Below, one piece after another: positions 1,611 through 40,000 of a stretch of DNA of 64,000 bases. The position numbers and the translations under genes are program-made. This stretch comes from Liolophura sinensis (Eukaryota > Mollusca > Polyplacophora > Chitonida > Chitonidae): positions 25,528,402-25,592,401 of the forward strand of contig NC_088301.1 of NCBI RefSeq assembly GCF_032854445.1, written 5' to 3'. Below the pieces are notes generated by a model. The model saw only the letters and a list, made by a program, of their open reading frames with translations. It was not told the origin of the DNA and did not search any database. Positions within the stretch are counted from its first letter, which is position 1; every line of letters begins with the position of its first letter.

Positions 1611-3799
1611 AGATGTCTCACAAAAGGATCCTCCTAAATTTCCAGAATTAAGGTACACACTGACAGCATCTTCAACACCATAACATAATGAAGTGTGCCA
1701 GTCAATTTTTAAGACACCTTTTTCCGTAGAACAGTCTTTTCACTGTGCGTTTTTGTACAGTGCATTTTTGCATGTTTGCAAGGTGCTTATTCAAACATAT
1801 TCTGAAGGCATTTTTCTGTGTAGACTGATTAAATTTTACTTTTTTTGAAGCCCTGAAACCAACATAGTTTTGTCTCCTTAATTGCACTGCGTAAAAGTTG
1901 CTCTTTCATATGCGAAAAGGATGAAGACTTAGGGTGCAGGATGCAGCTCTGTGCAGCATCATATGCCTATTTGCTAAAAGTGTGGATTTTTTGCTATTCA
2001 ACAGCTTTTAATTTTTGTTCACAAAAACGTGTCATGCTTGCATTTAAACATTTGATGCAAGAAATATGGATACGTTTATATACACGTATTGTGCTCCTAT
2101 ACTCTCACACATGTACATACATGTGTCATTCTTTTGAATTCTTCTGTATGTCATGCTTTGTAAACATAAACAATAACAATTGCATGTTAAAGAGACACAT
2201 GTGTACCCATGCGGTGTGAATGTTCCTATACCCAAAATGACTTAAAAATTCGACCACAAATTTTTTGGAGGCAAATGAATGTCATGAGATATTACTTCTG
2301 GTGCTAAAATTTACATTTTACCAAGTAGTCTGTCATCCTACCTTCCAAACATCTCTCAAAGCACCTTTCTAAAATCAATAAAACTCCTAGAATGTGGAAA
2401 AATGAGCAACGTAGTCATGGATGAAATTTTGGGTCACAGAGTATTTCTTCTAGTTGTCTCTCAGGTATTTATGTACATACATGTATGCATATTGTACAGT
2501 ACATGTATACATACCTTCATTTGTCATATTTAGCCAAAAAACACAAAAAAAGAGAAAAAAAAAGGAAATAAAAACCAAAAAAAAAGAACAAAAACAAACC
2601 ACTGATTGACACAGTTCAAATAGCTGCTATGTTTGATGCCATAATGTTTCTTCCCACTGGATATACGGCAGCCACCTTCACTGAAGCTAGAGTTTCGTGT
2701 GATGCTGTGTGTGTGGGGGCGGGGAAATGTACATGTACTAAAGGAATACCTTAATACATGTATACAAGAGATACGTTTCCTGTTAAAGTAAAAATATGTT
2801 TAAAACATCACACTCTGTCTTTTATGACTTATTTATAAAGCTCTTCCAATCAGATGTACAGTATTATATTACAGTATGGTTGTTTTGTTGTTTTTTTTTT
2901 TGTTTTTTTTTTACATTCCATGAGTTCTTATATGCATATACCTGTATTTTCTTGTCAATGTCACATACATGTACAGTTATGTAAATGAGCTTTGTCTTTT
3001 CACATTCACATGCAGGAAATCTACATTCCACGACCTCCAGGTTTAACCTCATAACATATCACACACCAGGTGGTGTATATACCAAGCCTTATTTAGCTGG
3101 TCACATTTTTTTCTCAAAAATACTTCCTGCTTTCTGCTTTCAAATATAATTATAGTATATAGATTTACACGAAACACATCCATTTTATGCTGAAGGCATT
3201 TTAAGAGATTAACTTGAAAAGCTGTATAAGGCATTAAGGTAAATGTACAGTTAAGTGTTGTAGAGTTCGGTTATTTTTGTATGCACATTTTATCTGCCTA
3301 TGTCGGTGAACATCCTGGATGTGTGCAAATACAGGTTAGCTCTTCCTAGCTAATTAAGTGAAGAGTATTAAGAATGTATTCTTTTTTCTCACATTTGTAA
3401 CTTCACCATGCTGACATTTGTCTCAGTGTTAAGCACGTCATTATTAGGAGACGATTGGAAATTAGAAAGTTTTACCACTCTTTATATAGGATTGGAGGAG
3501 AGTGAATGTCAAATTGTATGAGGCACACTTGAGGGGAAGGATTTATAGTTGAGACAATGCTGTATATCTGCATGTATGTATGATACCCATGTATTCATGT
3601 ACATCCATGTATATTTACAGACATTTTCAGTGGCACTCTTAATGTAAGCTAGTTCTTGCCATCATATGTTTGTAGTGTTACTGTTCAGTGATGTTAAGCC
3701 ACAAGCATTTATTCTCTCTTTCACTATTGTGTTCATGCAAGTACATTTATATACCCAGTACATATACCTAAGCATATATGTATGCTGAGTTAGGAAATC

Positions 3800-4090
3800 T
3801 GGGCTCAAATCCAGGTTGAGTCATGCTAAAGACTTCAAAAAATGCTATTTGTTGCTGCCTGGCTTGGTGCTGAGCACTGAGAAGCTAGAGCAAGGAAACT
3901 TTACTGGTTCGCCTGGTGTCATAATAATGTGTTTGGTGTCTTCAGCATGGTATTTCAGTAGGGGCAGCACTGGTGGCATGGGCTTGCCCTGCCACAAGGA
4001 GACACAGTATGTGTATTGTATACACACACCAAATGACTCCTTGTCATCATATGATTGAAAAATTGTAAAGTACAGCATAAAACCTTATAT
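3800..4090 (+). repeat. Diverged SINE-like repeat, (CACT)-tail family
   Basis: It has the same order of blocks as the better copies at 22744-23090 and 53304-53622: 'GGTTGAGTCATGCTAAAGAC' near the head, then 'CTGCCTGGCTTGG', 'GGGGCAGC', 'CCACAAGGAGACAC', 'GACTCCTTGTCATCATATGA' and 'TGAAAAATTGTAAAGTA'. It is far more diverged than those and lacks the CACT tail, so it is an old copy. Confidence 0.6.
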
Positions 4091-5647
4091 AAGTATAAAT
4101 ACAATGTATACTAACTGCCTAAGGCATATAATATTGGAAAAAAAATAAATTTTATTACCACCTGTGTTAGCATGAATTTGATGTGACCTACATCTACATG
4201 TACAGCTGTGCATCTAGATACTATACAATGATACATGCATCTTGATTTTATACATTTCAGTGACTATCACAAATTTTGTACACGTCATACCTGATCGTAA
4301 AAGATGAAAGCTTATTTCAGAATTCGTTAATTTTACAGCAGCTCTGTTTATAAAAGAATATTACAGATACTATAATTTTTCAACCACATCAGCAACCAAA
4401 CTCTGAGAGAACTATCAGTTGTAGAGCAATGATTTGACCAGTTCTGTGAAGCTTGCATCCTTATTGAGGTAAACAAATTATTTTTAGCATCATTTTCATA
4501 ATAATTGTATGTAATATTTTCGACTACTTTAAAAAAGTACTTTAGAGGTCAAGAAGGTTGAAGATTTACAGTAAACAGACAGAAAACATGTCAGTGGTTG
4601 AGCATGCACAAGAACAATGGCCTGATTTTCCCATCTGATCACGTGCAGATAAATCTGCTGTTTATTTGTACATTTTAAGGAAATCTTGAGAACAGATTTT
4701 TATGAACATAGATCTGAATTTATACACTGCATATGATGCAGAGAACTAGACAAATATTGCATGAAATCTGTTTACATATATCTCTTCTTTTTTTGTCTTG
4801 TTCAAACAACCATTAAATGAGCTATTTAACCACCCTTTCTAATCACATATATTTGTGTAAATGCACGAAAAGGTTTGCTTTCTAGATTTGTTTTATTTGT
4901 TTCAACCTGTGCTTATTTTATCACTTTAAAATTGTGAAAAATTTTATGTTCAGGTAATTATGTTTTTGTGTTAATTTTATACGTATATAGCCTTGTGCCT
5001 TTATTATACATAAAAGGTCTGCTTTCTGTAGCATTCACCTGTGTCTAGAAGCAGGTACACTGTAGCTACATGTAGCTGCAGGATGTAATCTGATGATCTT
5101 TGGTTATCGGCCAACCCTTGCTCTGTACCTGAGCTATCTACCCCATCCACTGATTAGCACCACATCTACCTGTCTGTGAGGACAGGGGGAAGGTTGTAAG
5201 GCTGTGTGTACAGTTACAGGTAATCCCATACCACCTGAACCGCGAGATATTTAGCTGACATATCAGAGATGTGGTGGAGACTCTTAACAGAACCATATGT
5301 AGCAACAACCAAGGTTAATTCTTGGCTCGTGCACTTTTTCGTTATATCATACTATTCCAGCTATTTAAGAATATTCATTTGTTTTATACTAGTGTTCATT
5401 ATGACCATTTACCTGTGATGATAGTCTAGATGACCATAATGATTGAACTCTTCTAATATTCATCATACAGCATATTCATTTACTTAACTTAAAAATTGAT
5501 GATATTCAATATAATCGTTTATATGTATCTGTGTTGCTATTCAATATTATCATTTTATACCTTTGTTGATATTGAAACATTATCAATTCATACCAGTCAG
5601 TGTTTAGTATTACCTTTTTACATGCTTGCTATGATTCATGTCTTTCA

Positions 5648-6358: not shown

Positions 6359-9300
6359 GTAAGTCAAACTGTAGTAGGATGGTTTTTCCACAAAACTTGA
6401 GGCAAGATGTGTAAACATTGTCAGAATGCTGCTTACATTTTTACAGTGTACTTTGAAACTTTCACATGTGTCTTTAGATAACATTCATGAGGTGGTCAAT
6501 GTGTCAATTTATAGCTCCTCAAATATTGACCCTAAAACCATATTTTAAACTTAGACTTATGTTAGAAAAAACTCTTTGGAATCTGTCCATGGCGTGTGAC
6601 TTCTATTAGCTACCTGCTACTTCTGTGGAAAATGATGCAGGTATTTCTTATTTTTAATTCATTTAATTCTTTGTCAGGTAGCTGACTATTTTTCTAGGGT
6701 AGCCTTCTGCTGAAAAAGATAGTAAAATCCCTATTTAAGGTGACTAAAAATTCCAGTTAGCCTTCGAAACATGCTTCTAAAGTTCAGCTGTGTTCTTTAC
6801 TTCAACTAGACAAAAACGACCCATCAAGATTTCAAGGTGAAGGTGTGAATTTCCGCGCTAAGTTAATCGGGGTTGATGATGTGGAGTCAGCAAGGGGTGA
6901 CAAGATGTGCCAGGAATCTTTACAGAAGCTGAAAGCTGCAGTGAAAGCATCAGGGGAGCATAAACAGAGGATTCTAGTGAATGTATCCCTGGAGGGGCTG
7001 ACACTGATAGACGAACGAACAAAGGTGAGTAACAGAGGATTTTAGTGAATGTATCCCTGGAAGGGCTAGGGATCCCTGGAGAAGCTGGCAGTTGTAGATT
7101 AATGAACAAAGGTGAGTAACAGAGGATTTTAGTGAATGTATCCCTGGAAGGGCTAGCACGAACAAAGGTGAGTAACAGAGGATTTCAGTGAATGTATCCC
7201 TGGAGGGGCTAGCACTGATAGACGAACGGACAAAGGTGAGTAACAGAGGATTCTAGTGAATGTATCCCTGGAGATGCTAGCACTGATAGACGAACGGACA
7301 AAGGTGAGTAACAGAGGATTTTAGTGAATGTATCCCTGGAGGGGCTAGCACTGATAGACGAACAGACAAAGGTGAGTATCAGAGGATTTTAGTGAATATA
7401 TCCCTAGAGGGGCTAGGGATCCCTGGGGAGGCTGGCACTTGTAGACCAGTGAACAAAGGTGAGTAACAGAGGATTCTAGTGAGTGTATCCCTGGAGAGGC
7501 TGGCACTTGTAGACCAGTGAACAAAGGTGAGTAACAGAGGATTCTAGTGAGTGTATCCCTGGAGAGGCTGGCACTTGTAGACCCATAAACTAAGGTGAGT
7601 AATAGAGGATTCTAGTGAGTTTATCCCTGGTGAGGCTGGCACTTGTGAAACAATGAACAAAGGTGAGTAACAGAGAATTCTAGTGAGTTTATCCCTGGAG
7701 AGGCTGGCACTCATAGACCAATGAACAAAGGTGAGTAACAGAGGATTCTAGTGAGTGTATCCCTGGAGAGGCTGACACTTGTAGACCAATGAACAAAGGT
7801 GAGTAACAGAGGATTCTAGAGAGTGTATCCCTGGAGAGGCTGGCACTTGTAGACCAATGAGCAAAGGTGAGTAACAGAGGATTCTAGTGAATGTATCCCT
7901 GGGGAGGCTGGCACTTGTAGACAAATGAACAAAGGTGAGTAACAGAGGATTCTAGAGAGTGTATCCCTGGAGAGGCTGGCACTTGTAGACCAATGAGCAA
8001 AGGTGAGTAATAGAGGATTGCAGTGAGTGTATCCCTGCAGAGGCTGGCACTTGTAGACCCATGAACTAAGGTGAGTAACAGAGAATTCTAGTGAGTTTAT
8101 CCCTGGAGAGGCTGACACTTGTAGACCAATGAACAAAGGTGAGTAACAGAGGATTCCAGTCAGTGTGTCCCTGGAGAGGCTGACACTTGTAGACTAATGA
8201 ACTAAGGTGAATAACAGAGGATTCATCTCATCATTTTTTATTTTTTATTAGGGGTCCACATGTTTCCTGCCAGTTTTTTTTTTCACTTCTCTGGAATATG
8301 CATCATGATTATGTGATGCCATGAAAACACATATATTTTATTGATTTATTTCATTGGCGTTTTACGATTTATTGCGATTTATTGAACATAAAATTTGTTT
8401 CACTATGAACGGTTTGTGTTTGGTCCCCTGCAGCCCCTTATTTACCCTTTATGCCAACACGTACATGCATGTACACGTTGTATAGCATGGTAAATATTGC
8501 GCAGGAACCCAGCTTAATGCTGTGCAAACTTTCGCCAGTTCAGTTGATATCGTACATGACAGGATGGATTGAAGTGTTTGTCAACATTGTGAACAGCGAC
8601 GTGTTGACAATCAATATGGCCGATGCAGTCGTGCACAGTGTATATGGAGGACAAGTGGATATTAATGTATCAGTAGATGCACATGTGTACATATATACCT
8701 AGATTGTACTTAGAATAAACAGACATTGAGTAAACAAGTCTTATAGCCAGGTAAACAATAATTTAAAGCAAAATATACACGTGCAAAGGTTTGCACATGT
8801 CACAAGCCTGGCATTAATGAGAAGCTAACTTGTCAACCATATTGGAGATGTATTAGCATAGGCTGGGATAGCAACATTGCTCCAGTGTAGCGTCCACTGT
8901 AAATATGTTAACATATAGCCAAGCATGCTATAAGCTACGTGTGAGACATGACTGCTTTGATATTGCTGGAATAATGATGAAAACAACCCAAGAGGAAGAA
9001 TTTACTTTATGTACCTGATATATGTATTGTTCATAAATAATATTTTAATGTTTGCTAATCAAAAAAGACTGTCCAATTAAATCCACAATTTTACTTTTAA
9101 ATAATCCACCCTATGAATAAGAGCCACATGTAGACAGTCATACTTCACTTGATGTGGGTTTTTTTTTTGGCAAGTCATATTGTCCCAAAAGTTTAGCTCA
9201 TATTTTCCATGTCATTTTCTTGGAGAATTAGAGAGTTTCCATTCATCAGTGACCAGTTATTAACTCACTCATGTAATGGCTGTCCCCATAACTTTCCAAA

Positions 9301-13341: not shown

Positions 13342-16300
13342 TTTTTTTGACAGGCTTTGAGTAAATCATGATGTCAGCTCACAAAATTTCTATCGGACTC
13401 AAAATTATTTTTTATTGTTATTATTTGTATGTTTTATTAGTAACTACAGTTCTTGTAGGCATAGGTAGGTAGAGAAAACAGATTAGCAATTGTGTTTAAC
13501 AATTCCTTTGCCTCTTTTTGTCATCACAGGCCATCGAGCACAACCATGCCGTCCATAGAATTTCCTTCATCTCTCGGGACGTCACCGACAATCGAGCCTT
13601 CGGTTACATATACGGAGTAGGAGATGGTACTCACAAGTTCTTTGCCATCAAAACGTTACAGGCTGTGAGTTATGGACTGGCTTTTTTGGGGGGTTTTTTT
13701 TAGCCACAGATAATTGTAGATTGCGCAGTCTATATATCGAGTTATCTTTTTACACTGTTAATTTATATCTTTAGACAGTCTCTGGTGTTTTATGCAGTGA
13801 CACATCTCTAGCAGGGTTTTTCTGTCTGAAGTCTGATGTTTTATGCTGTGACACACCTTTAACAGGGTTTTTCTGTCTGAAGTCTGGTGTTTTATGCAGT
13901 GGCACACCAGTAGCAGGGTTTTTCTGTCTGAAGTCTGGTGTTTTTAAACTTCAGGATATCCATTCCAGTGTTTCCCTTTGTCTGTAGATATCCTGGTGTT
14001 TTATACATTGAGATACCTGTAGTTGCGTTTGTGTGTCTGAAAACTGTCTTGTGATCTATACCAAGATATCTGCTCCAGTGTTTCCCTCTGTCTGTCTGTC
14101 TGTCTGCCTGTTTGCCTGTAGATATCCAGGGTGTTTATACATTGAGATACTTGTAGCATCGTTTGTGTGTCTGAAAACTGTCTTGTGATCGATACCAAGA
14201 TATCTGTTCCAGTGTTTCCCTCTGTCTGTCTGTCCGTCTGCCTGTTTGTCTGTAGATATTCTGGTGTTTTACACATTCAGATACATATAGCAGGATTTTC
14301 CTGTGTTCCCCTTGTATATCTATAGACAGTCTGGTGTTTTATACTTTGAGATATCTGTTCCAGTCTTTCCCTCTCTGTGTGTTTCTGTCTGAAGACAGCC
14401 TACAAGCTGGTGTTTCAAAAGTTGACTTCCAGTGTTTCCCTCTGTCTGTAGACAGTCTGGTGTTTTATACTTTGAGATATCTGTTCAAGTCTTTCCCTCT
14501 CTATGTGTTTCTGTCTGCAGACAGCCTACAAGCTGGTGTGTCATATGTTGACTTCCAGTGTTTCCCTCTGTCTGTAGACAGTCTTTGAGATATCTGTTCC
14601 AGAGGTTCCCTCTGTAGTCAGTCTGGTGTTTTATACATTGAGATATCTGTACCAGTATTTCCCTCTGTCTGTCTGTCTGTCTGCAGACAGTTGACAAGCT
14701 GGTGTTTCATATGTTGGCATTTGTGTTCTATTGTTTCCCTCTGTCTGTCAGTCTCTGCTGTTTTATACATTGAGGTGTCTGTTCCAGTGTTTTACTCTCT
14801 CTGTCTGTCCCTGATGTTTTATACATTGAGATGTCTGTTCCAGTGTTTCCCTCTGTCTGTCAGTCTCTGCTGTTTTATACATTGAGATGTCTGTTCCGCT
14901 GTTTCCCTCTGTCTGTCTGTATGTAGAAATGACAGTACTAAATGATCTTACCCTGTCAACTTCTAAATGACTCTTTCTACTTGTAGGCCGAGTATCTGGT
15001 GCTGACCTTGAGAGATCTGTTCCAGTGTGTTTACGAGTTAAAGAAACAGGAAATGGAGGAAGCCAAAAGCAAACAGGAAACAGGGGAGACCACTGAAGGA
15101 ACAGAGGGTGGGCCAAAAGAAGGGGGGGACAACATCTATCAGGTGAGAGAAAGTCACTGTTTTAATTTATCACATTATGTCATTTGTACATCAAACAGGT
15201 CATTGGTGCGGGTCATGACATTGTCATGAAAACTCTTCTCTTTCAATCGCTAAAACACATAAAATGTGAGTCCAATCCTTGCCCTTGGGCACATTCCATT
15301 GATCTCACTGTTCATTGGGCCTTGGTGACAATAAGCCGTCTACAACACTTGCATGGCCATTCAATGAAAACCACTTTTCTTTCACTAGTATGTTGTACAT
15401 AGATGACAGTATGTTGTACAAAGACCTTTCCCAACTGTCAATCAACAACACGCAATTGACCAATCATTATTGTAGCAGTATTGTTGCAAATAGGTCAACC
15501 GGTTGTCCCACACATTGGTTACAAATGCTCAATCTTTCTGTGACGCCATGAGGTCAGAATTGCTCTCTCCGGGAATGGAATGAAAAATTTACGCTGTCAC
15601 GACAAGGTGTGGTGGGACATCAGATGTAATGGATGCATCCATTGGGACTGTAACTTTTTAAAGCTCACAGGAACTCCAGTTTCCTCCACCGGTTTCCAAG
15701 AAAAATGACCACAGTATAAGTTGAACAATGATCAAAGAGTATAAATATACTATAAGTAAATATAAGTAATTCAAAGAGCTCATTATTGTCGGATTCAAAT
15801 GTGAAGCAAGGTGGTTTCCTGCAGGATAAGCACTGTTTCCTCCACCCTTTGGTGGATTTGGTGGCTTTGGGGGATTATTCTTAAGGTTATTTTATTTTTA
15901 TAAAACAAAGAAAACCAAAGGTCAGTTTCACAAGGAACTCATGATGTTATATGCATATAACTGCAGTACCATGGCAAAGTTATGCCTACAGTACTAGTTG
16001 CTATGGTATGTACTTTAGGGTATGCACTGATGCTAAGGGAGTTTAATAATGACTCCAAGCTATGAAGAATATTGCCTGATAAATTCAAATGAAATGTTTC
16101 ATAAAGTTCCTTTTAATCATGTGTACTTATTGTAGATTTGCATACAATTTTGACAATAAAATTTCAGGTTTCTTCATGTCTGAAAGTATTTTTGCCCAAA
16201 TTAAACTTAAAGAAAGGGTGCCCAAATTGAAAAACTGTATTTAACTGCAGTCTGACTTAATCTGGGACATCAAGTGATCAAACCTTAAAAATGTTTATTT

Positions 16301-19300
16301 TAGTTTATCTACACCTCACCTTTTATCTGCTTTTTAACTTCCTGAACCATATGTTCATAGTCTGCTTAATATTATCAAAATGTGAAACTCAGAGGTCATA
16401 TATACATGTAAATGCCATAGTTTCTAGTGTTCTTGTGTAATGAAACTAACGTAGGATTGTAATCCAGCATTGTTGCCAGCAGTGTTTTGGTCTGATGTCC
16501 TTCATGCCTTTGTCAACATTTATTCATAGTTTTGAGCACCCGGGCTCCTCGCAAGGAGCAAGAGGTGATAAATAACATGGACATGAATGGGCGAAATGCT
16601 GATTGTGCCTATTGCTTAAGTTTAAAGTACTATATGACATTGGAACTATTATATCTGAAGGCTAGGTTACATCCTTTTCCGGAAAGAATTTCTTGCTTAA
16701 AAGCTTTTTTTTTTTCCATTTTTTACACTGAAATCTTCTACAGTGCCTATCTCACTTGTGTTAAATTTGCTTTGGTTTCACCTCCAGCGCTCTTGTCACA
16801 TGACCAAATAATATGCTGACGAACAGTTACAGTATAACATCACTGCATAACTATGAATTTGTAGATGGTCTAAAACACCACCAGGTACAATGGTCTCCAC
16901 ACTTCAAAAGGCTTTATATACTTTTCATTCCTCACCCAAAACAGGCTTAGCATGATTGTCATAGCTGTCAGTTTCCTGAACACATGTAATCAGAGGTACC
17001 AATGCTATACCATGTGTACACATTCAGAGGAACTGTATTGCCATGTTCATCAAAGCCATTGACGTTATATAACTTATGTTTTGTCACAGTCCTGTAAACA
17101 CAATATCTTTGAAGTCTTTAATCAATTTCCATTTATGATCTTGCTCATGTGCACCTAGTCATATAGGAGATCTTCAGCATTGAGACATCTTTCCACATGC
17201 AAACCAACCGCTGGCTGAGTGACTGTCTCTTTGACTGCTCACAAAAAAAAAAAAAAACTAGTTGACAAATTGATGTATCAGATCTTTTAACGTATCATTT
17301 ATCTATTATGTATTTGATCAGGTACCTACAAACGGAGCACCTGTGGAGGGGAAGGAAGGTGAAAGCATATACCAGGTAATTCTGACTCTAGGCAATACTT
17401 TATGGCTCATCTAAAATTGTTTCTCAATTGTTCTTTGTACATCTGTGCTGCATGCAAGAAAGTAAAAAACAAAATGTAAGAAAAAGCAACTTTAGTACTT
17501 CCTCCCATATTATGCTTCAGAGGAGGATATGCCAAGTACTAATCAGCCTAGTACTGATCAACCTGGTGTCAGTAGACTGTGATGGAGTAGGGTATCATTA
17601 CTGCTGTCATCAGCCTGGTGTCAGTAGACTGTGATGGAGTAGGGTATCATTACTGCTGTCATCAACCTGGTGTCAGTAGACTGTGATGGAGTAGGGTATC
17701 ATTGCTGTCATCAGCCTGGTGTCAGTAGACTGTGATGGAGTAGGGTATCATTGCTGTCATCAGCCAGGTGTCAGTAGACTGTGATGGAGTAGGGTATCAT
17801 TAGTGCTGTCATCAGCCTGGTGTCAGTAGACTGTGATGGAGTAGGGTATCATTACTGCTGTCATCAGTCTGGTGTCAGTAGACTGTGATGGAGTAGGGTA
17901 TCATTACTGCTGTCATCAGCCAAGTGTCAGTAGACTGTGATGGAGTTCGTTGTCAGTTTTGCTGTCATCAGCCTGGTGTCTGTGATGGATTAGGGTATCA
18001 TTACTGCTGTCATCAGCCTGGTGTCAGTAGACTGTGATGGAGTAGGGTATCATTAGTGCTGTCATCAGCCTGGTGTCAGTAGACTGTGATGGAGTAGGGT
18101 ATCATTGCTGCTGTCATCAACCTGGTGTCAGTAGACTGTGATGGAGTAGGGTATCATTACTGCTGTCATCAACCTGGTGTCAGTAGACTGTGATGGAGTA
18201 GGGTATCATTAGTGCTGTCATCAGCCTGGTGTCAGTAGACTGTGATGGAGTTCGTTGTCAGTTTTGCTGTCATCAGCCTGGTGTCTGTGATGGATTAGGG
18301 TATCATTACTGCTGTCATCAGCCTGGTGTCAGTAGACTGTGATGGAGTAGGGTATCATTAGTGCTGTCATCAGCCTGGTGTCAGTAGACTGTGATGGAGT
18401 AGGGTATCATTGCTGCTGCCATCAACCTGGTGTCAGTAGACTGTGATGGATTAGGGTATCATTACTGCTGTCATCAACCTGGTGTCAGTAGACTGTGATG
18501 GAGTAGGGCTTCATTACTGCTGTCATCAGCCTGGTGTCAGTAGACTGTGATGGAGTAGGGTATCATTACTGCTGTCATCAGCCTGGTGTCAGTAGACTGT
18601 GATGGAGTAGGGTATCATTACTGCTGTCATCAGCCTGGTGTCAGTAGACTGTGATGGAGTAGGGTATCATTACTGCTGTCATCAGCCTGGTGTCAGTAGA
18701 CTGTGATGGAGTAGGGTATCATTACTGCTGTCATCAACCTGGTGTCAGTAGACTGTGATGGAGTAGGGTATCATTACTGCTGTCATCAGCCTGGTGTCAG
18801 TAGACTGTGATGGAGTAGGGTATCATTACTGCTGTCATCAGCCTGGTGTCAGTAGACTGTGATGGAGTAGGGTATCATTACTGCTGTCATCAGCCAGGTG
18901 TCAGTAGACTGTGATGGAGTAGGGTATCATTACTGCTGTCTTCATCCTGGTGTCAGTAGACTGTGATGGAGTTTGTTGTCATTTTTGCTGTCATCAGCCT
19001 GGTGTCAGTAGACTGTGATGGATTAGGGTATCATTTCTGCTGCCATCAGCCTGGTGTCAGTAGACTGTGATGAAGTAGGGTATCATTGCTGCCTTCATCC
19101 TGGTGTCAGTAGACTGTGATGGAGTTCGTTGTCAATTTTGCTGTCATCAGCCTCGTTTCTGTGATGGAGTAGGGTATCATTACTGCTGTCATCAGCCTGG
19201 TGTCAGTAGACTGTGATGGAGTAGGGCTTCATTGCTGTTGTCATCAGCCAGGTGTCAGTTGACTGTGATGGAGTTCGTTGTCATTTTTGCTGTCATCAAC

Positions 19301-22300
19301 CTGGTGTCAGTAGACTGTGATGGATTAGGGTATCATTTCTGCTGTCATCAGCCTGGTGTCAGTAGACTGTGATGAAGTAGGTTATCATTGCTGTCTTCAT
19401 CCTGGTGTCAGTAGACTGTGATGGAGTAGGGTATCATTACTGCTGTCATCAACATGGTGTCAGTAGACTGTGATGGAGTAGGGAATAATTTCTGCTGTCA
19501 TCAGCATGGTGTCAGTAGACTGTGATGGAGTAGGGTATCCCAACTGCTGTCATCAGCATGGTGTCAGTAGGCTGTGATGGAGTAGGGAATAATTTCTGCT
19601 GTCATCAGCATGGTGTCAGTAGACTGTGATGGAGTAGGGTATCCCAATTGCTGTCATCAGCCTGGTGTCAGTAGGCTGTGATGGAGTAGGGTATCATTGC
19701 TGCCTTCATCCTGGTGTCAGTAGACTGTGATGGAGTAGGGTATCATTACTGCTGTCATCAACATGGTGTCAGTAGACTGTGATGGAGTAGGGAATAATTT
19801 CTGCTGTCGTCAGCATGGTGTCAGTAGACTGTGATGGAGTAGGGTATCCCAACTGCTGTCATCAGCATGGTGTCAGTAGGCTGTGATGGAGTAGGGCATC
19901 ATTTCTGCCGTCTTCAGTATGGTGTTAATACAGTGAGGCAACACAAAGACCAGCTCTGAGATAGTATAAGGAGAAGTTGAGACAGCTATTGGCTTCACCT
20001 TTGCTACTTTCATTGTATTCTTCCGCAGTGGTTGCCAGCCAGTAGAATATTCAAGTCTTTTATTCAGATGAAAGAAGATGATTCAAGGAATTACGGTCTG
20101 GTGTTAATTTGACCTGTAGTCGTTGGTGCTGAGAATGCGAGAAGCTAATTGTCATGACTGAGTGTTCAAGTTTTGCCATTTTAGTTCTGGTTTGTCCGTC
20201 TGTTTGTGTGTATAATCTTTGGTTTCCACACAATAGCTCCTGTTGCAGATGTAATCAATGGATGTGTGCATTTGTGGGAAATAAAATCTCTGAATTTGAT
20301 TGGTTAAAATTATACTTTAAAGGTGCACTGCTATGTTTCCATGAGTCTAAAAACAATTTGTTATCAGGCTTCACTTGTTATCGTAATTTGCCATGTTTCC
20401 AGGAGTCTAAAAACAATTTGTTATCAGGCTTCACTTGTTATCGTAATTTGCCATGTTTCCAGGAGTCTAAAAACAATTTGTTATCAGGCTTCACTTGTTA
20501 TTGTAATTTGCCATGTTTCCAGGAGTCTAAAAAAAAAAATTTGTCATCAGGCTTCTCCTGTTATTGTAATTAATACAAGGTTGTGGAAGTTTTCTGTGTG
20601 AACATATTCTATTAATTAGCACTATTTTTAATATCAATCTTAGCAATTGCCCTGTGTGGTAAACAAATGTTAAATACATAAATTGCCCTCTGTTGCATTA
20701 TTTATGGAAAACTCTTTGTGTTTAGAACAAATCTGGTGAGCGTCATTTATGCTTAAGACAAAAAGTAGTAGTTTATGGGATGTCATTGACATCAGGTGAA
20801 TGCACAATGATAAGGAACAAGCCATGGCATTTTGAACGATGTTTTACTGCAGATTTATGTGGTTTATTTGTTGTGAATTAACATAAGCTACAAATTTCCT
20901 AGACATATGGAAAAAAAAAACAACAGAAAAATGTAACACAATTGTCACAAAGTATGTACTCAGATACCTTTCATTTTCTTTGCAGTTCACCTTTATATGT
21001 TTTTTGTCTCAATCTTCTCAGGTGCCTGGGAGCAACGCTCCAGTAAATAACACGGATGAGACTGACACTGCTAACCTGTTAGACCTGGAGAATGAACTAC
21101 AGTCCCTTCAAGAAGTGAGTATAAATAATGCCATATATTCAATTATTACAAAATAATTCTTTTCAATTTCTTTTCAATGATATTAGCACAGCAAAAGTAG
21201 GTTTTAGAGAAGTGAATAATAAGACAGATGATTATGTGTGTTTTTTCCACTCAGAAATTTCACACAAGTATTTGAAACCTCTCAATTTTATTTTTCTGTT
21301 GTTTTTTTACACATATCTTTTGTTTTTAAGAAAGTAAAAGACAACATATAAAGTTTAGTAGTACTTTTGTTCATTTACTAAATATAATGTTTGCACATTT
21401 TTATGTACTTAAATTGACAACATAAACATTATAAATGATAAGTATATTTTATTCTTTAGTTTATGAAGGATACAGAGCACATCAACGGTCAGCTGGAGAA
21501 TGTGAGAGTTAGCACTTAACACTGGATTTACTGACATCTAGATATAAATGTAGCTGGGAACATGGAGCACTTGAGAACTATGAGCTTGTGTTACACTTCT
21601 GTTGCACATTTGGGAACTCTGAGCTTGCCTAACACTTTTGTTGCACTTTTGGGAACTGAGCTTGTGTTACACTTTTATTGGACATTGGGGAACTCTGAGC
21701 TTATGTTACACTTCTGTTGCACATTCGGGAACTCTGAGCTTGCCTGACACTTTTGTTGCACATTGGGGAACTGAGCTTCTGTTTTGCTTTCGCTGGACAT
21801 ACTTTGGTTGAAGGAGCTTGCAATATACTTTCTTTGGACATAGTTTGGAAGAGGGAGCTTGAGTTGTACTTTTGCCAGATACAATAAGCTGGTTCGATAT
21901 TTCGTTGAGGGATTTCAGACAAACTGGGCTGAAAGAAGTGATTTTTTAGTAGCTGCAAGTGGCATTGTTGAGCCTCCAGACCTGACTATGTAAGATGCAC
22001 ATCCAATCTAGAAACTGTTGTGAAACCATGCCTTTAGCTGTAGTTTGTGAGACCCCTCTCCCTGTCTCATCCAAACCAATATGAACTTGGGAGACTCCTG
22101 AAATGTTGATGGAGACAGACAGACAGACAGACAGGTAGGCACAGAAAAAGCAGTTCATAACAACAGCACACAAACGCAAATGGACTAAACCAAAAGCATG
22201 CAGAGAGGATGTCGATGGAGCTTATTCGGAACACAGAGCTTTTATTACAATTCACAATTTCACTGGACATACTGTATTTCACCTAAAGTTTGTAAAATAC

Positions 22301-25300
22301 ACATTCTGAAGTACATGAAGACGTTAATATGATACTTCACAAAAACTTATTATGTGACCCTATAAGATGAATGAATCAGACAGAAATCAAGCAAAACGAG
22401 TCACTTGAAAAGTGCTAAACTTCAGGTGAATTACATTATTTATTTATTTATTTATTTGATTGGTGTTTCACGCCATACTCAAGAATATTTCACTTATACG
22501 ACGGCAGCCAGCATTATGAAGGGTGGAAACCGGGCATAGCCCGGGGGAAACCCACGACGATCCGCAGGTTGCTGTCAGAGCTGAATTACACTAAATTGGG
22601 AACAGAATTTTTTCTACTTTCTCTGGACTATCCTATTTTATGGCTATATTTCCAAAAAGCTATATTTTTCATTTTTTATGGTAAAATCTTATTCAAGGCC
22701 TATCTCACTTGGGTTAAATTTTTGTTTTCACTTCAAGTACTCTTAGTCTGCTTCGGGAGTGGTAAATCCAGGGTCAGTCCTGGGTCGAGTCACACCTAAG
22801 ACTTTAAAAGAGGAAGTTGTAACTTCCTGGCTTGGCATTCAGGATGAAGGGGATAGTGCAACAACTGGTTGACCCGTATCAGTATAATGGCTCTGGCGGG
22901 GCAGCTTTCTTGCCTTTCGTAAGTCGTCTCAGTGAAGCAGCACTAGATAAAAGAGGGGTGGGAATCCATCCTGCAACAAGGAGGCACATGCACTCTAAGA
23001 ATTCCTTCATTGTCAGATGACTGAAAAATTGTTAAGTATGACGTTAAACCCCAAGCACTCACTCACTCAATCACTCACTCAATCACTCACTCAAGTACTC
23101 TAGTCACATGACCAAAGAGTGTGCTGATGATTGGCACAGACATCATGACATCAATGCAAAACTATGAAGACAGTGACAGTGTCAGTGCACAAAGGGACAT
23201 CACTCTGCTGTGGTGCCATTTCAAGCTGGGAATCAGCTGTTTGTTAATTACACGAAAGCAGGGTTTAGGCACAACGATTGTAATCTTCATGAACACTGTG
23301 GTTTATACTCCAGTTACACAAGCATGAGTTTGACAGCCATGTTTTTTTTTATTTATTGAAGACAACTGCTGTGAAAAGTAATAAAATGAAAATAAAAGAC
23401 ATATCAACCAGTCAGAAGCCACACAAGACTAAGGGGATCAACAAGCCAGTTCACAAAGTAGGAAAACATAATGCTACGTCAGTATTTCAGGAGTATCTAC
23501 TAACTAACTAACATTGAGCAAATTTGGGAAAAGCATTCTGTGCTCTTTCCACAACAAACATGTCAAGGAATTCTGTCAAAAATCAAAAGCCTCTGTCTGG
23601 TTTCATACATGACAAATGTATGTGTTTGTGTTCATCGAAGTCATTATCTTCCAAACTTTTCCAGCTCATGCTGGCTTCCTCTCCAGCCGTATGTGGGAAG
23701 GTCTGACAGCAACCTACGGATGGTCGTAGGTTTCCCCCGGGCTCTGCCTGGTTTCCACCCACCATAATGCTGGCCGCCGTCATATGAGTGAAATATTCTA
23801 GGGCGTCAAACACCAATCAAATAAATAAATAAATCCAAACTTTTCCTTCCCTTGACCTTGAAGCACACAAGCTTGTCTCCATTGTTGAGTATACAGGCTG
23901 CATCTGCTGAATTGTAGACAGCCTATATTTGTATCAAGAGTTGTGTCCCTTTATAATCTATATTAGTCTAGGAAATTACATGAAACCTGCTAAAAGAAAT
24001 TTTAAAAAAAACAGATGTTTTGTGATACCGTTTTGATTTGTTTTACCAGTTTTTATTAACAGTTTTGTTTTTAACCGTTTTCTTTTATGTCTTGGGTTCT
24101 AAAACAGGTGTTAGCTTGGAGTAGATCAAATGGTGATTTTTGCAAATTTTAGTGTACATACAAAATGCGAAAAGATGTGGTATTAAATGGCTAATCTGTG
24201 AACTTGTTGGTGATGGTATGACTTCCTTTGCTTCTTTTAAGGAGGATGTATTTTGCTTAGTAAGGTGCACATCACCTAACCACGAGGCACATAAGCTTGC
24301 GACTTGGTGAAGTGGTTAGCATTCCAGGGTGGTTCCATTACTTATAATACAGTAATGGGTGGCGCAATGACTAAGGAGCCTCTTACCAATGCGGTCGCTG
24401 TGAGTTCAAGTCCAGTTGAGGACTGGCAACGGTCTACGGATTGTTCCTGTTGCCTCCCACCATAATGCGAGCCATGGTCGTATAAGTGAAATTTTCTTGG
24501 GTACGGTGTAAAACACCAATCTAATAAATAAACAAAAATAAATGAATCATAAGCTGCTGTTTCAATCCCAGCCTTAAGCAGAGAATTTGTATATTTTCCC
24601 ACTCACTGTTCTTGGGGCCTTATTGATAGTAAATAGTCGATAACAGTTTTGTGGCCACTTGTTGAAGACCACTTGCATCACACATGGGAAAGTTCATCAT
24701 TAACTTGCCAAAGGTCAGTGGTTTACTTTAGGGACCCAAGTTTCCTCGACCCATATAACTGACTGCCATTGAATAAGTGGAAAAATTTTGAGTATGAATT
24801 GAAACAAGAATCAAGCAAATAAATAAATTGTAAAATATGGTGCTGTTACTGATTTATGCCTTCAGTTACATGTCCATGGAAAAATGAAAATTACCTTTCA
24901 GATGCTGTTTGGCTAATTATTACCAGTTCCTGTTTATTTATTACTGTATTATAAGTAATGGGTATATATATATATATGGTTAGCAGAATAGGAAATAAAA
25001 TAATTCAGATTGGGCAGGAACTACTCTGTACACCTGTAAACTCCCATTGTTTACAGTATGTACTGGTTCCTCATTTCAGGGCATTCAGCAAATGGATACT
25101 TTCGAGGACATATTTGGGTCAGGTTCTGGCCAGGCACCACCAGCTGAGGGCACTGCTCCCAAATCAGATCCGTGGGGAGCACCGGCCACCAGCACAGCAG
25201 ACTCCTCAGGGTTTGGAGACAGTTTTGGTGCTACATCTAATGTTCCAGCCAATAACAATGACCCATTTCAGACAGCGTTTTCTACTCCAAGTACAGCTGC

Positions 25301-36060: not shown

Positions 36061-36325
36061 CATTTATTTGATTGTGGTTTTGATTTTTCACTTATGGCGG
36101 TTAGCATTATGGTGGGTGGAAACCAGCGTTATGGTGGGTGGAAACCGGGCACAGCCCGGGGGGAAACCCACGACCATCCGCAGGTTGCTGGCAGACCTTC
36201 CCACGTATGGCCGGAGAGGAAGCCAGCATGAGCTGGGCTTGAACTCACAGCGACCGCATTGGTGAGAGACTCCTGGGTCATTACACTGCCCTAGCGCGCT
36301 ACCCAACTGAGCCACAGAGGCCCCT
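36060..36325 (-). repeat. SINE, (AAAT)-tail family, near full length
   Basis: On the minus strand: GGGGCCTCTGTGGCTCAGTT (A-box region), GCGGTCGCTGTGAGTTCAAG (B-box), GCTCATGCTGGCTTCCTCTC, GCGGATGGTCGTGGGTTTCC. A GGTGGGTGGAAACC block is duplicated inside. The tail is degraded; no clear target duplication. Confidence 0.88.
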
Positions 36326-37075: not shown

Positions 37076-40000
37076 CTGAAACAAAAAGGGGGGAAAAATT
37101 AGATAAAAGACAATATGCAATAAGAGCAATGATTTTAAAATGCAAGATGTGAAATACAAAACATGTGCTGAAAGTGAACAATTACAGAGGAAAGACCAGA
37201 AGTGATAAAGTCTACCCTCGATTTGAGGTTGACAGGATGCACAAGTGAAGTATAGCAAGAGTAAAACTTGATGTATTACCCTGAAAACTTCTGATGAATG
37301 TTACATGACCTTAGATAGCATCAATAACTCACATCTGTATCTGAGTCAGCATCCTCCTCTTTGTCGTCCTCCTTATCTTCATCGTCAACATCATCCTCAT
37401 CCTCTTCATCGGCATCCTCCTTCTTAGCATCTGATAACACAATGTTAAGGTTAGGTTGTTTTCTTCATATTTTGTGGTTTGTCGTACGATTACCACAATA
37501 TAATCAACTTCATCAGGTGTGGGAAGATGGGTGTCCCAGTGATTAGATTAAAAACACAATCTAACTGGGCAGCCTGGACCAATGAACAAACTGTATCAAG
37601 CATAGTTTAGCAAGGTCATATCCATCCATTCCTACTTCAAACTTCCGAATTTCTTCTTTGGAGTGAAATTTTTGTTTCTCGTTTTTTTTGGAATACTTGC
37701 ACGCAACAGAAATCGGGGGTATAAAAGCAGCAAGATCAGTTATGTAGAAACAACATCACAAACATCAGAGGCCTGGACACTATAAAATCTACTCTTCATC
37801 ACATCTTGCTGCAACTATACTTAGCCTGTGACTTAGTACTGAATAACACATTACACAGCATGCTTGGTGACACACTTGTCTCCCCTGACAAGAGTTACCT
37901 ACCTTCTTCCTCTTTACGTTTCTTTTCTTCCTCCTCTCTCTGCTTCCTTTCTATTTCATCCTGTTCATCTTTCATTTTCTTCTCAGCATCCTTAAATTAT
38001 ATAACACCACATGCATATTTCAATCAAATGCCTTTTGCGGTCATGTATAATAGGTCTATCCTGTCTCTTAAACCATAAGAATTTCTTGCATGAAACCCAG
38101 ATTATCACTTTTACATTGGGAGAAAAAAAAAAATTTTTTTTAAAAATATATAGCCATATCAAATAACTCAAACTTTGTAAATTCTGCAACTTTCATAACT
38201 TCCTTTACAGATACACCGCTATGTTTATGAATGAATGGCGATGGCATATGTCGGCAAATACTGCAATCATATCATGACGAGACCGTTACACAATTTGCCC
38301 TTATATCTGATGCATACAGAAAAGAAGATACAACGAACCTAAAAATAACAATGAGAATCTAACATGTTGTACATCTTGTTTAATTCAAAACAATACCTTT
38401 GTTTTTCCCCAGGTTTCCTTGCCAATTTCTTCAGCTTTGCCTTCATCGTCTGTGATCAGGATGTTATCAAAAATTGTTCCCGATTTCACCTGCGAACAAA
38501 CGAAACATTTGATAAGCAACACTGAACTCTTTTTAAATCAGAAAATCTTTCCACAAGTCTTTTAAGATAAAATGATCAAATGGGAAGTCAGCCATCCAGT
38601 GGACTTTTCAATAACTAACCATCTGGCAGCATAAACTGTAGTACAGAGGGGTGATAAGTCGCTGAAAAATCACCTGACAGAAGCGATTACATCACATAAC
38701 CAATTCACCGAATTTTTCAACTGATCCATCCCTCTGTGCTACAGTAAGGTGAAAAGTTGGAGAGAAAAAATCCATGAAACCATAGATAACTTACATTTTG
38801 TAAGTTTGATGAAGCGATGATTTTTATGGAGGGACTAAGTTTTGAGAATGGAACATTACCTGCCAGAGATCAAATCCGATAGCAGCAATGTCATCATATT
38901 TGTAAAGATTGGCATCGGCTTCATACTCCGGGTTATCAATTTCTGGGTGAACCCATTTGCCTTTGTAGTCTGGGTTGTCAATCTGTTTTGGTTTCCATTC
39001 TCCCTGTAACACAAAGTCAACAACAGACATAAAAAAATTTATTCATTTCATAACTGTGCGCCAAGTTTTCATAACACGAGGGTAAATTTCAACTATCAAA
39101 AAAAGTCATGAAATCGCATACTGATACTGATGTAGATTCTGTCACTGAATTTTAAAACTTTTAAGATTAAGACTCCTGCACTGTGTGTAAGGAAAGTAAA
39201 TTACTGTTTAATCCAAAACAAGTCAGTACAATGGTAAAACTCATGGAATGATAAACAACGTTTTAAAACTGTTACCCGAGTGAAAGGTACTTAAGTTTAA
39301 ACATTCTTTACACATAAATTGATGACATCTGAAAGTCCCATCACACTTCACATCTCGGCAGTGTCATGACAATGTCAAAAAGCAATGTTACTCCCACCAC
39401 ACCCCAGAAAATCAAACACTAAACCCACGTTTCCATTAACACAAAACTATTGATAAAAGTCACAGCAATTATACCTTGTAGTCTGGGTTGTCAATCATTG
39501 GGGGCTCCCATTCTCCATCCATCTCATCATCCCAGTCATCAGGCTTCTTGGCATCAGGGTCAGGGATGTGCTCGGGCTTGTCCCAGTCCTCGGGTTTGGT
39601 GTCATCAGGATCATCGATCTTCTCACGCTCATCCCAGTCATCAGGCTTCTTTGCTTCAGGATCCTACAAAACATGAAGTTAAATTATGTTACAAGTCCTC
39701 AGGTTTGGTCATTTCAGGATTCATATAAAGTGAAATTTGTCATCAGATTTTCTTGCTTCAGGGACCTGCCTGATAAAGGAAATTTTGTTTAAAAATCTAC
39801 ATTTGGTAGTAGCATGACTGTACATACAAAGTCACAACCTGTTTACCTGCGCTTAATCCTTTGTTTGCATGACAAGTCTAGTTCTAACAGTTGATTTAAC
39901 GTCACAGTGAAACCAAAAATCAGACAGATCCCAGTTCCTTTAGTATTTGTCCAATCTTCAGGAATTAACCTGTTAACTTACCTTAATTTTCTTTGGTGGC

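Follow-up and report, generated by a model that had tools for sequence, protein, structure and literature searches.

The closest described counterparts of the repeats analysed here lie in two human genes. The available part of PMC5954066 describes a VNTR in intron 18 of human ABCA7, with a 25-bp unit in 12 to about 427 copies; it depicts canonical splicing and reports a cryptic donor one unit in, whose use retains 25 bp and is out of frame. The accessible text of PMC2630376 and PMC5188458 describes a 31-bp VNTR of human CBS, c.1444_1467+7(16_21), at exon 13/intron 13. Its name implies 24 exonic plus 7 intronic bases in 16–21 copies, that is, an amplified exon end with its donor; PMC5741875, in its available part, merely cites this VNTR. 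A second CBS variant, 844ins68, duplicates an intron/exon junction, one site of which is strongly preferred (PMC2630376, in part). Finally, introns can be gained when AGGT segments are duplicated in tandem, the duplication taking place at an AG/GT site (PMC4974935, in part).

Two arrays in the Dab gene can be set beside these systems. They lie in the window, the 64-kb stretch of Liolophura sinensis DNA that was analysed. Like the ABCA7 VNTR, the tandem array at the start of Dab intron 2 begins at, and includes, the splice donor of an exon, and GT recurs in each unit. The ABCA7 unit is described in the available text as intronic from the GT onwards, whereas 62 of the 68 bases of the Dab unit are exonic, and Dab has an acceptor-side array in addition. 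The CBS VNTR shares the amplified exon end and donor, although its unit is 31 rather than 68 bp and it is one human locus, with a copy number linked to human enzyme activity. The 844ins68 variant parallels the array on the exon 4 side of Dab, yet has two copies only. Unlike AGGT-mediated intron gain, in Dab an existing intron grows and no new intron arises. The ABCA7 and CBS VNTRs are single precedents, and the Dab intron-2 array alone belongs to their kind: its unit contains the genuine donor with adjoining exon and intron sequence, and its copies lie head to tail at one exon edge, reaching into the intron. What is new is that donor-side and acceptor-side arrays occur together within a single gene and that arrays of this sort turn up at many unrelated exons across the genome. 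Copied splice junctions are not described in the available parts of a C. elegans minisatellite paper (PMC4039745) and a Daphnia repeat paper (PMC3152781), and no description of junction arrays recurring across one genome appeared among the papers listed by the literature searches.

The donor-side array of Dab intron 2

The Dab features on which the analysis rests are the following.

6810–7024, + strand: Dab exon 2, first part of the PTB domain, ending ...LIDERTK in phase 0 (PDB Disabled-2, E=3.4e-21)
6963–7030, + strand: founder unit of 68 bp, 62 exonic bases plus GTGAGT (exon/array alignment)
7025–7030, + strand: genuine 5' splice site of intron 2, as protein continuity indicates (exons 2-3-4 against 1oqn)
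7031–8224, + strand: array of 17 units, mostly of 68 bp (two are 87 bp and one is 56 bp), plus a 12-base partial unit (TRF, alignment)
7043–7048, + strand: in-frame TAG TGA, met by any read-through beyond 7024 (translation)
13530–13664, + strand: Dab exon 3, with donor GCT/GTGAGT (PDB Disabled-2, E=4.8e-15)
13774–14922, + strand: array of intron 3, with units similar to the beginning of exon 4 and its acceptor side (TRF, profiles)
14987–15142, + strand: Dab exon 4 (PDB Disabled-1, E=0.0012; end read from CAG/GTGAGA)

In the PDB search, exon 2 also matched the PTB domain of Disabled-1. Exons 2, 3 and 4 matched chain 1oqn at residues 9–77, 79–122 and 123–152, respectively, and residue 78 would be filled by the lysine that ends exon 2. 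Across the 609-Mb assembly exon 2 has a single full-length match, the 13 further matches listed being copies in the intron-2 array. Because the protein runs through exons 2, 3 and 4 with no space for array-coded residues, the Dab mRNA should use the donor at 7024 and the acceptor at 14987, and we infer from the protein that these are the sites giving Dab.

Eighteen donor-like sites follow one another in this region, the last base before GT being at 7024, 7111, 7167, 7235, 7303, 7371, 7458, 7526, 7594, 7662, 7730, 7798, 7866, 7934, 8002, 8070, 8138 and 8206. The donor 9-mer AGGTGAGTA stands at 17 of them (the genuine donor and 16 copies), and the final site, at 8206, reads AGGTGAATA. Spacings between donors are 68 in 14 of 17 cases, 87 in two and 56 in one; compared with the 68-bp unit, 19 bases are added in each 87-bp unit and 12 are missing from the 56-bp one. 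The 12-base partial unit that closes the array lies at 8213–8224. All 17 occurrences of AGGTGAGTA on the + strand of the window fall within the array, and the − strand has none. Exon 2 aligns to the array with a local score of 52, against a maximum of 19 among 1000 dinucleotide shuffles. The array is therefore the amplified end of exon 2 with its donor, and the original prediction was right about this origin, as it was about the head-to-tail repetition at a mainly 68-bp period, the alignment of the units to exon 2, and the sixteen unchanged donors with one altered.

The original prediction had further reasoned, from pure 68-bp steps, that use of the copies would shift the frame and that the array might yield frame-altering isoforms. 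This arithmetic does not fit the actual spacing, as the first copied donor lies 87 bp on, a multiple of three, and even there a stop is encountered. Read-through past 7024 gives VSNRGF and then a stop, the TAG lying 18 nt into intron 2 in the reading frame of exon 2. Each downstream donor takes in the stop at 7043–7048, so that all 17 alternatives would truncate Dab within the PTB domain; since the stop precedes every copied donor, the frame argument is moot whatever the copy number. Functional alternative 5' splice sites that alter the protein require an open frame and were rejected on account of this TAG. Occasional use of a copied donor would instead yield an early-stop transcript that would presumably be removed by decay.

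The same stop could be given a function. If downstream donors were used in some tissues or stages, the array would act as a regulated poison switch that lowers Dab protein through early stops, and both the identical in-frame stop reached from every copy and the full donor kept in 16 of 17 copies accord with this. However, the stop derives from the founder unit, which makes selection unnecessary, and donors decay in two sister arrays: that at a kinase-domain locus (L080) keeps GTGAGT in one of four copies, and the DUF3535 array has three exact donors among nine near-exact ones. We consider such a switch unlikely.

The constancy of the copied donors deserves separate treatment. Within the Dab array, the donor 9-mer shows one change in 17 copies and is one of two among the 68 circular 9-base windows that vary so little (p=0.008 against random columns, post hoc), and the mid-unit stretch TCCCTG is likewise invariant. 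The test applies to the Dab intron-2 array alone, the other donor arrays having been found via the donor motif. Retention in 16 of 17 copies, which according to the original prediction could reflect recent growth or selection, stands as an observation. As evidence of selection on the copied donors it is weak and does not suffice for such a claim: the value is post hoc, TCCCTG is invariant too, and donors decay in the sister arrays. The donor 9-mer is nevertheless more constant than most of the unit, and neutrality need not give such constancy, which counts against the reading of the array as tolerated.

Comparison of the units also informs their history. Intronic units differ from the exon copy at 4–13 of the compared positions and from one another at 0–16. 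Units 2–5 are closest to the exon (4–5 differences), and units 1 and 6–17 form a second lineage (bootstrap 98). These two lineages suggest that the array did not grow in a single step. Units 12 and 14 do not differ at all, which points to recent copying, and units further along the array show only a weak tendency to differ more from the exon copy (Spearman 0.43, p=0.09). Assemblies often get the length of tandem arrays wrong, and an artefact might be suspected; against this stand the differences among units and between units and exon, the similar arrays at many other loci and the 60.4-Mb length of the contig, and we judge an artefact very improbable, the copy number given here being that of the one assembly.

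Two further functions were weighed for the copied sites. The array could serve as a docking platform for U1 snRNP, protecting the 6.5-kb intron 2 against premature cleavage and polyadenylation or assisting transcription. Every + strand window in the 64 kb whose predicted U1 pairing energy is −12.3 kcal/mol or lower falls within the array (18 windows at 17 sites, the genuine donor included), and intron 2 contains nine A[AT]TAAA signals further downstream. Strong pairing, however, follows automatically from the copying of one strong donor, and acceptor-side arrays, such as those of intron 3 and of two kinase-domain loci (L069 and L071), could not serve in this way; a docking platform is accordingly quite improbable. 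Even less credible, and the least probable reading of all, is stepwise removal of the copies as 68-nt introns running from AAAG/GT to AAAG/GT, through AGGT intron gain or recursive splicing. Most copies do carry AAAG/GTGAGTA, with AG and GT correctly placed, but pyrimidines fill 5–10 of the 19 positions before AAG in the 17 copies, compared with 12–15 at the genuine acceptors of exons 2–4. AGGT-model intron gain was rejected on the same count, as the copies have no functional acceptor polypyrimidine tract.

The probable acceptor-side array of Dab intron 3 and other repeats in the window

The intron-3 array is irregular, with TRF periods of 51–134, and fills most of its intron. A 16-unit profile built without exon 4 had its best off-array match in the 64-kb window at 14991–15028, bases 5–42 of exon 4 (E=0.0032); the next match had an E-value of 2.6, leaving this the sole off-array place below 1. 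This first profile was seeded where the likeness had already been noticed, a choice that may bias it towards exon 4. Three TRF consensus units, used as automatic seeds, each had exon 4 as their top off-array match as well (E=0.014, 0.010 and 0.022; runners-up 0.21, 2.2 and 1). None of 200 Markov sequences reached the 13.3 bits of the profile against exon 4 (maximum 12.7), and 2000 shuffles of the exon-4 start gave a maximum of 20 against an actual pairwise score of 21. Exon 4 was missed when the array was compared with the window by plain blastn (E<=0.01), and two other segments out of 6266 equalled its pairwise score. Several units show TGTAG/A where exon 4 has TGTAG/GCCGAG, which suggests that the acceptor was copied along with the beginning of the exon. 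The evidence is good but not overwhelming: the likeness to the start of exon 4 is probably real, though less certain than the exon 2 case. The array would thus mirror that of exon 2 on the acceptor side; neither it nor the recurrence of junction arrays elsewhere in the genome featured in the original prediction.

Within intron 3 (13664–14986), 24 of 75 AGs have more upstream pyrimidines than the genuine acceptor, and splicing to any of these 24 would run into an in-frame stop. When Dab exon edges were compared, copies stood out only at the end of exon 2 and the start of exon 4 among 11 valid edges (12 rows less the one for which no position of the exon-4 end was available; the set did not include the ends of exons 4 and 6). 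Profiles of 13 TRF arrays in the window gave, besides the exon-2 array, no off-array match at E<=0.01 at the placed Dab exon edges.

Tandem arrays detected by TRF make up 11.7% of the window. In the Dab intron after exon 4, a 52-bp unit is repeated 46 times (17557–19925); its source was not found within the window. A 36-bp array at 254–1291 is accompanied by separate related copies about 200 bp downstream (1486–1616). The repeat at 39527–39663 has a 51-bp unit, a multiple of three, and on the minus strand reads like a calnexin/calreticulin P-domain. Dispersed related elements at 22503, 23731, 30298, 34210, 45641, 62827 and other places may be SINEs, and they share a stretch with short arrays at 36103 and 52109; some of the repeats presumably resemble mollusc SINEs.

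Junction arrays elsewhere in the genome

Other arrays were traced from AAAGGTGAGTA places (the first 100 shown) and from a search for paired donors (the first 100 of 450 shown). Single donor 11-mers show no excess across the whole genome (527, against 618 for the reversed pattern), and paired donors occur at 450 places against 130 for the control. A by-eye count of clusters among the first 100 places, covering C1 and C2 to 25.04 Mb, gave 20 against 9 (binomial p=0.011). Half of the 20 look like an exon end with a donor (L010, L011, L014, L024, L029, L031, L036, L037, L038 and L039), and six of these ten have a Pfam match. The exon-end arrays with homology support are listed here, those marked Pfam having E-values from 9e-11 to 3e-5.

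L010: DUF3535 exon, 66 bp x at least 22.8 (Pfam, 26.1 bits, just below the 26.2 cut-off)
L011: ankyrin exon, 31 bp x 14.7 (Pfam)
L012: RPTOR exon, 88 bp x at least 24 (PDB, E=4.6e-5)
L024 (C1:1307000-1311500), about 2467–4000: antistasin exon, 81 bp x 18.9 (Pfam)
L031: EGF exon, 30 bp x at least 101 (Pfam)
L036: nuclear-receptor zinc finger exon, 65 bp x 17.7 (Pfam)
L037: signal peptide peptidase exon, 32 bp x 43 (Pfam)
L058: carboxypeptidase exon, 64 bp x 18 (found with the control pattern)

L014, L029 and L039 had no Pfam match, and neither L029 nor L039 had one in the PDB; L038 and L039 are near-identical. We count L014, L029 and L038/L039 as three further exon-like cases lacking homology support. 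In the other ten clusters (L009, L025, L026, L027, L028, L030 and L032–L035) no exon end with donor was seen by eye, L026 and L027 being ambiguous and L033–L035 forming one family. None of 40 edge frames from nine control-array loci matched Pfam at 1e-3. Of two control-pattern arrays from outside the listed stretch (8 of their 19 edge frames scanned), the carboxypeptidase one turned out to be an exon-end array, and the other, exon-like by eye (L057), gave no match. In L009 (C1:92438500-92444500), a 71-bp array at 1968–4591 adjoins a predicted minus-strand exon and, judged by eye, shares its polypyrimidine tract and not its exon bases. Read-through of the antistasin array is open for 734 nt, and donor choice there could add antistasin-like repeats to the protein. 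A stop comes before the next donor in 8 of the 12 tabulated arrays and does not do so in the other 4, so no consistent poison design emerges.

A survey made without regard to repeats or splice motifs covered 24 of 138 PF00069 kinase-domain matches. Nineteen headed the list of those whose open frames did not exceed 225 aa and were taken with 1500 bases per side; the other five came from later rows, with 300 bases per side, and were picked before their sequence was seen. Junction arrays were found at 4 of 48 match ends (95% interval 2–20%), an approximate count and denominator, as these edges are ends of HMM matches, perhaps not of exons, and arrays were counted within 60 bases. Two of the four cases stem from the five stretches with 300-base flanks.

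L069: acceptor side, 37 bp x 8.8
L071: acceptor side, 80 bp x 7.1, GTTCCTGTTTCAG/ATAG in 7 of 7 places
L080: donor side, 67 bp x 5, with the donor decay noted above
L082 (C10:22583826-22584635): donor side, 65 bp x 4.7, GTAAGC in four copies, genuine donor GTATGC

In L082 the GTAAGC decoys look stronger than the genuine GTATGC donor. TRF arrays occupy 9.7% of the 63 kb around the 19 kinase matches. A crude seeding model expects 0.63–0.70 of 48 edges to bear arrays (P(>=4) 0.004–0.006), and simple overlay of arrays at 9.7% coverage about 4.7 of 48. The outcome hinges on the null model; an excess at exon edges is thus not established.

Origin and significance of junction arrays

The reading that best accounts for these observations, and which we hold to be probable, is that splice-junction minisatellites arise in a repeat-rich genome, grow into the intron and are mostly tolerated, the first donor being used. 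On this account, a tandem duplication across the exon 2/intron 2 junction (6963–7030) would have started the array, and slippage or unequal exchange would have expanded it into a minisatellite. Since protein function holds the exonic copy, the array can spread solely into the intron. Minisatellites, about a tenth of the sequence examined, would start at exon edges among other places. Splicing would use 7024, with the array tolerated; by the ABCA7 precedent, the canonical donor would be expected together with an isoform that keeps one unit (PMC5954066, in its available part).

A broader reading goes further and is more doubtful, although it merits consideration. Exon edges may be preferred birthplaces of minisatellites, with several percent of edges, and hence thousands of genes, bearing copied donors or acceptors that the spliceosome ignores by position, taking the first donor and the last acceptor. 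Stop-free units of a multiple of three, as in the antistasin array, might then give rise, through donor choice, to proteins that differ in their number of repeats.

We accept the point, made in the original prediction, that the spliceosome has to select the first donor from a long row of matching ones. Choice among identical neighbouring donors has been studied with engineered duplicates, and the classical in vitro expectation is that of two strong donors the intron-proximal one wins, which makes the Dab array a sharp test. Natural arrays of this type, with an identical 9-mer at one exon, in many genes and on both donor and acceptor sides, would offer a test of donor choice. Junction arrays may also be a route to longer introns and a way for variation in copy number to affect splicing, as it does in human ABCA7.
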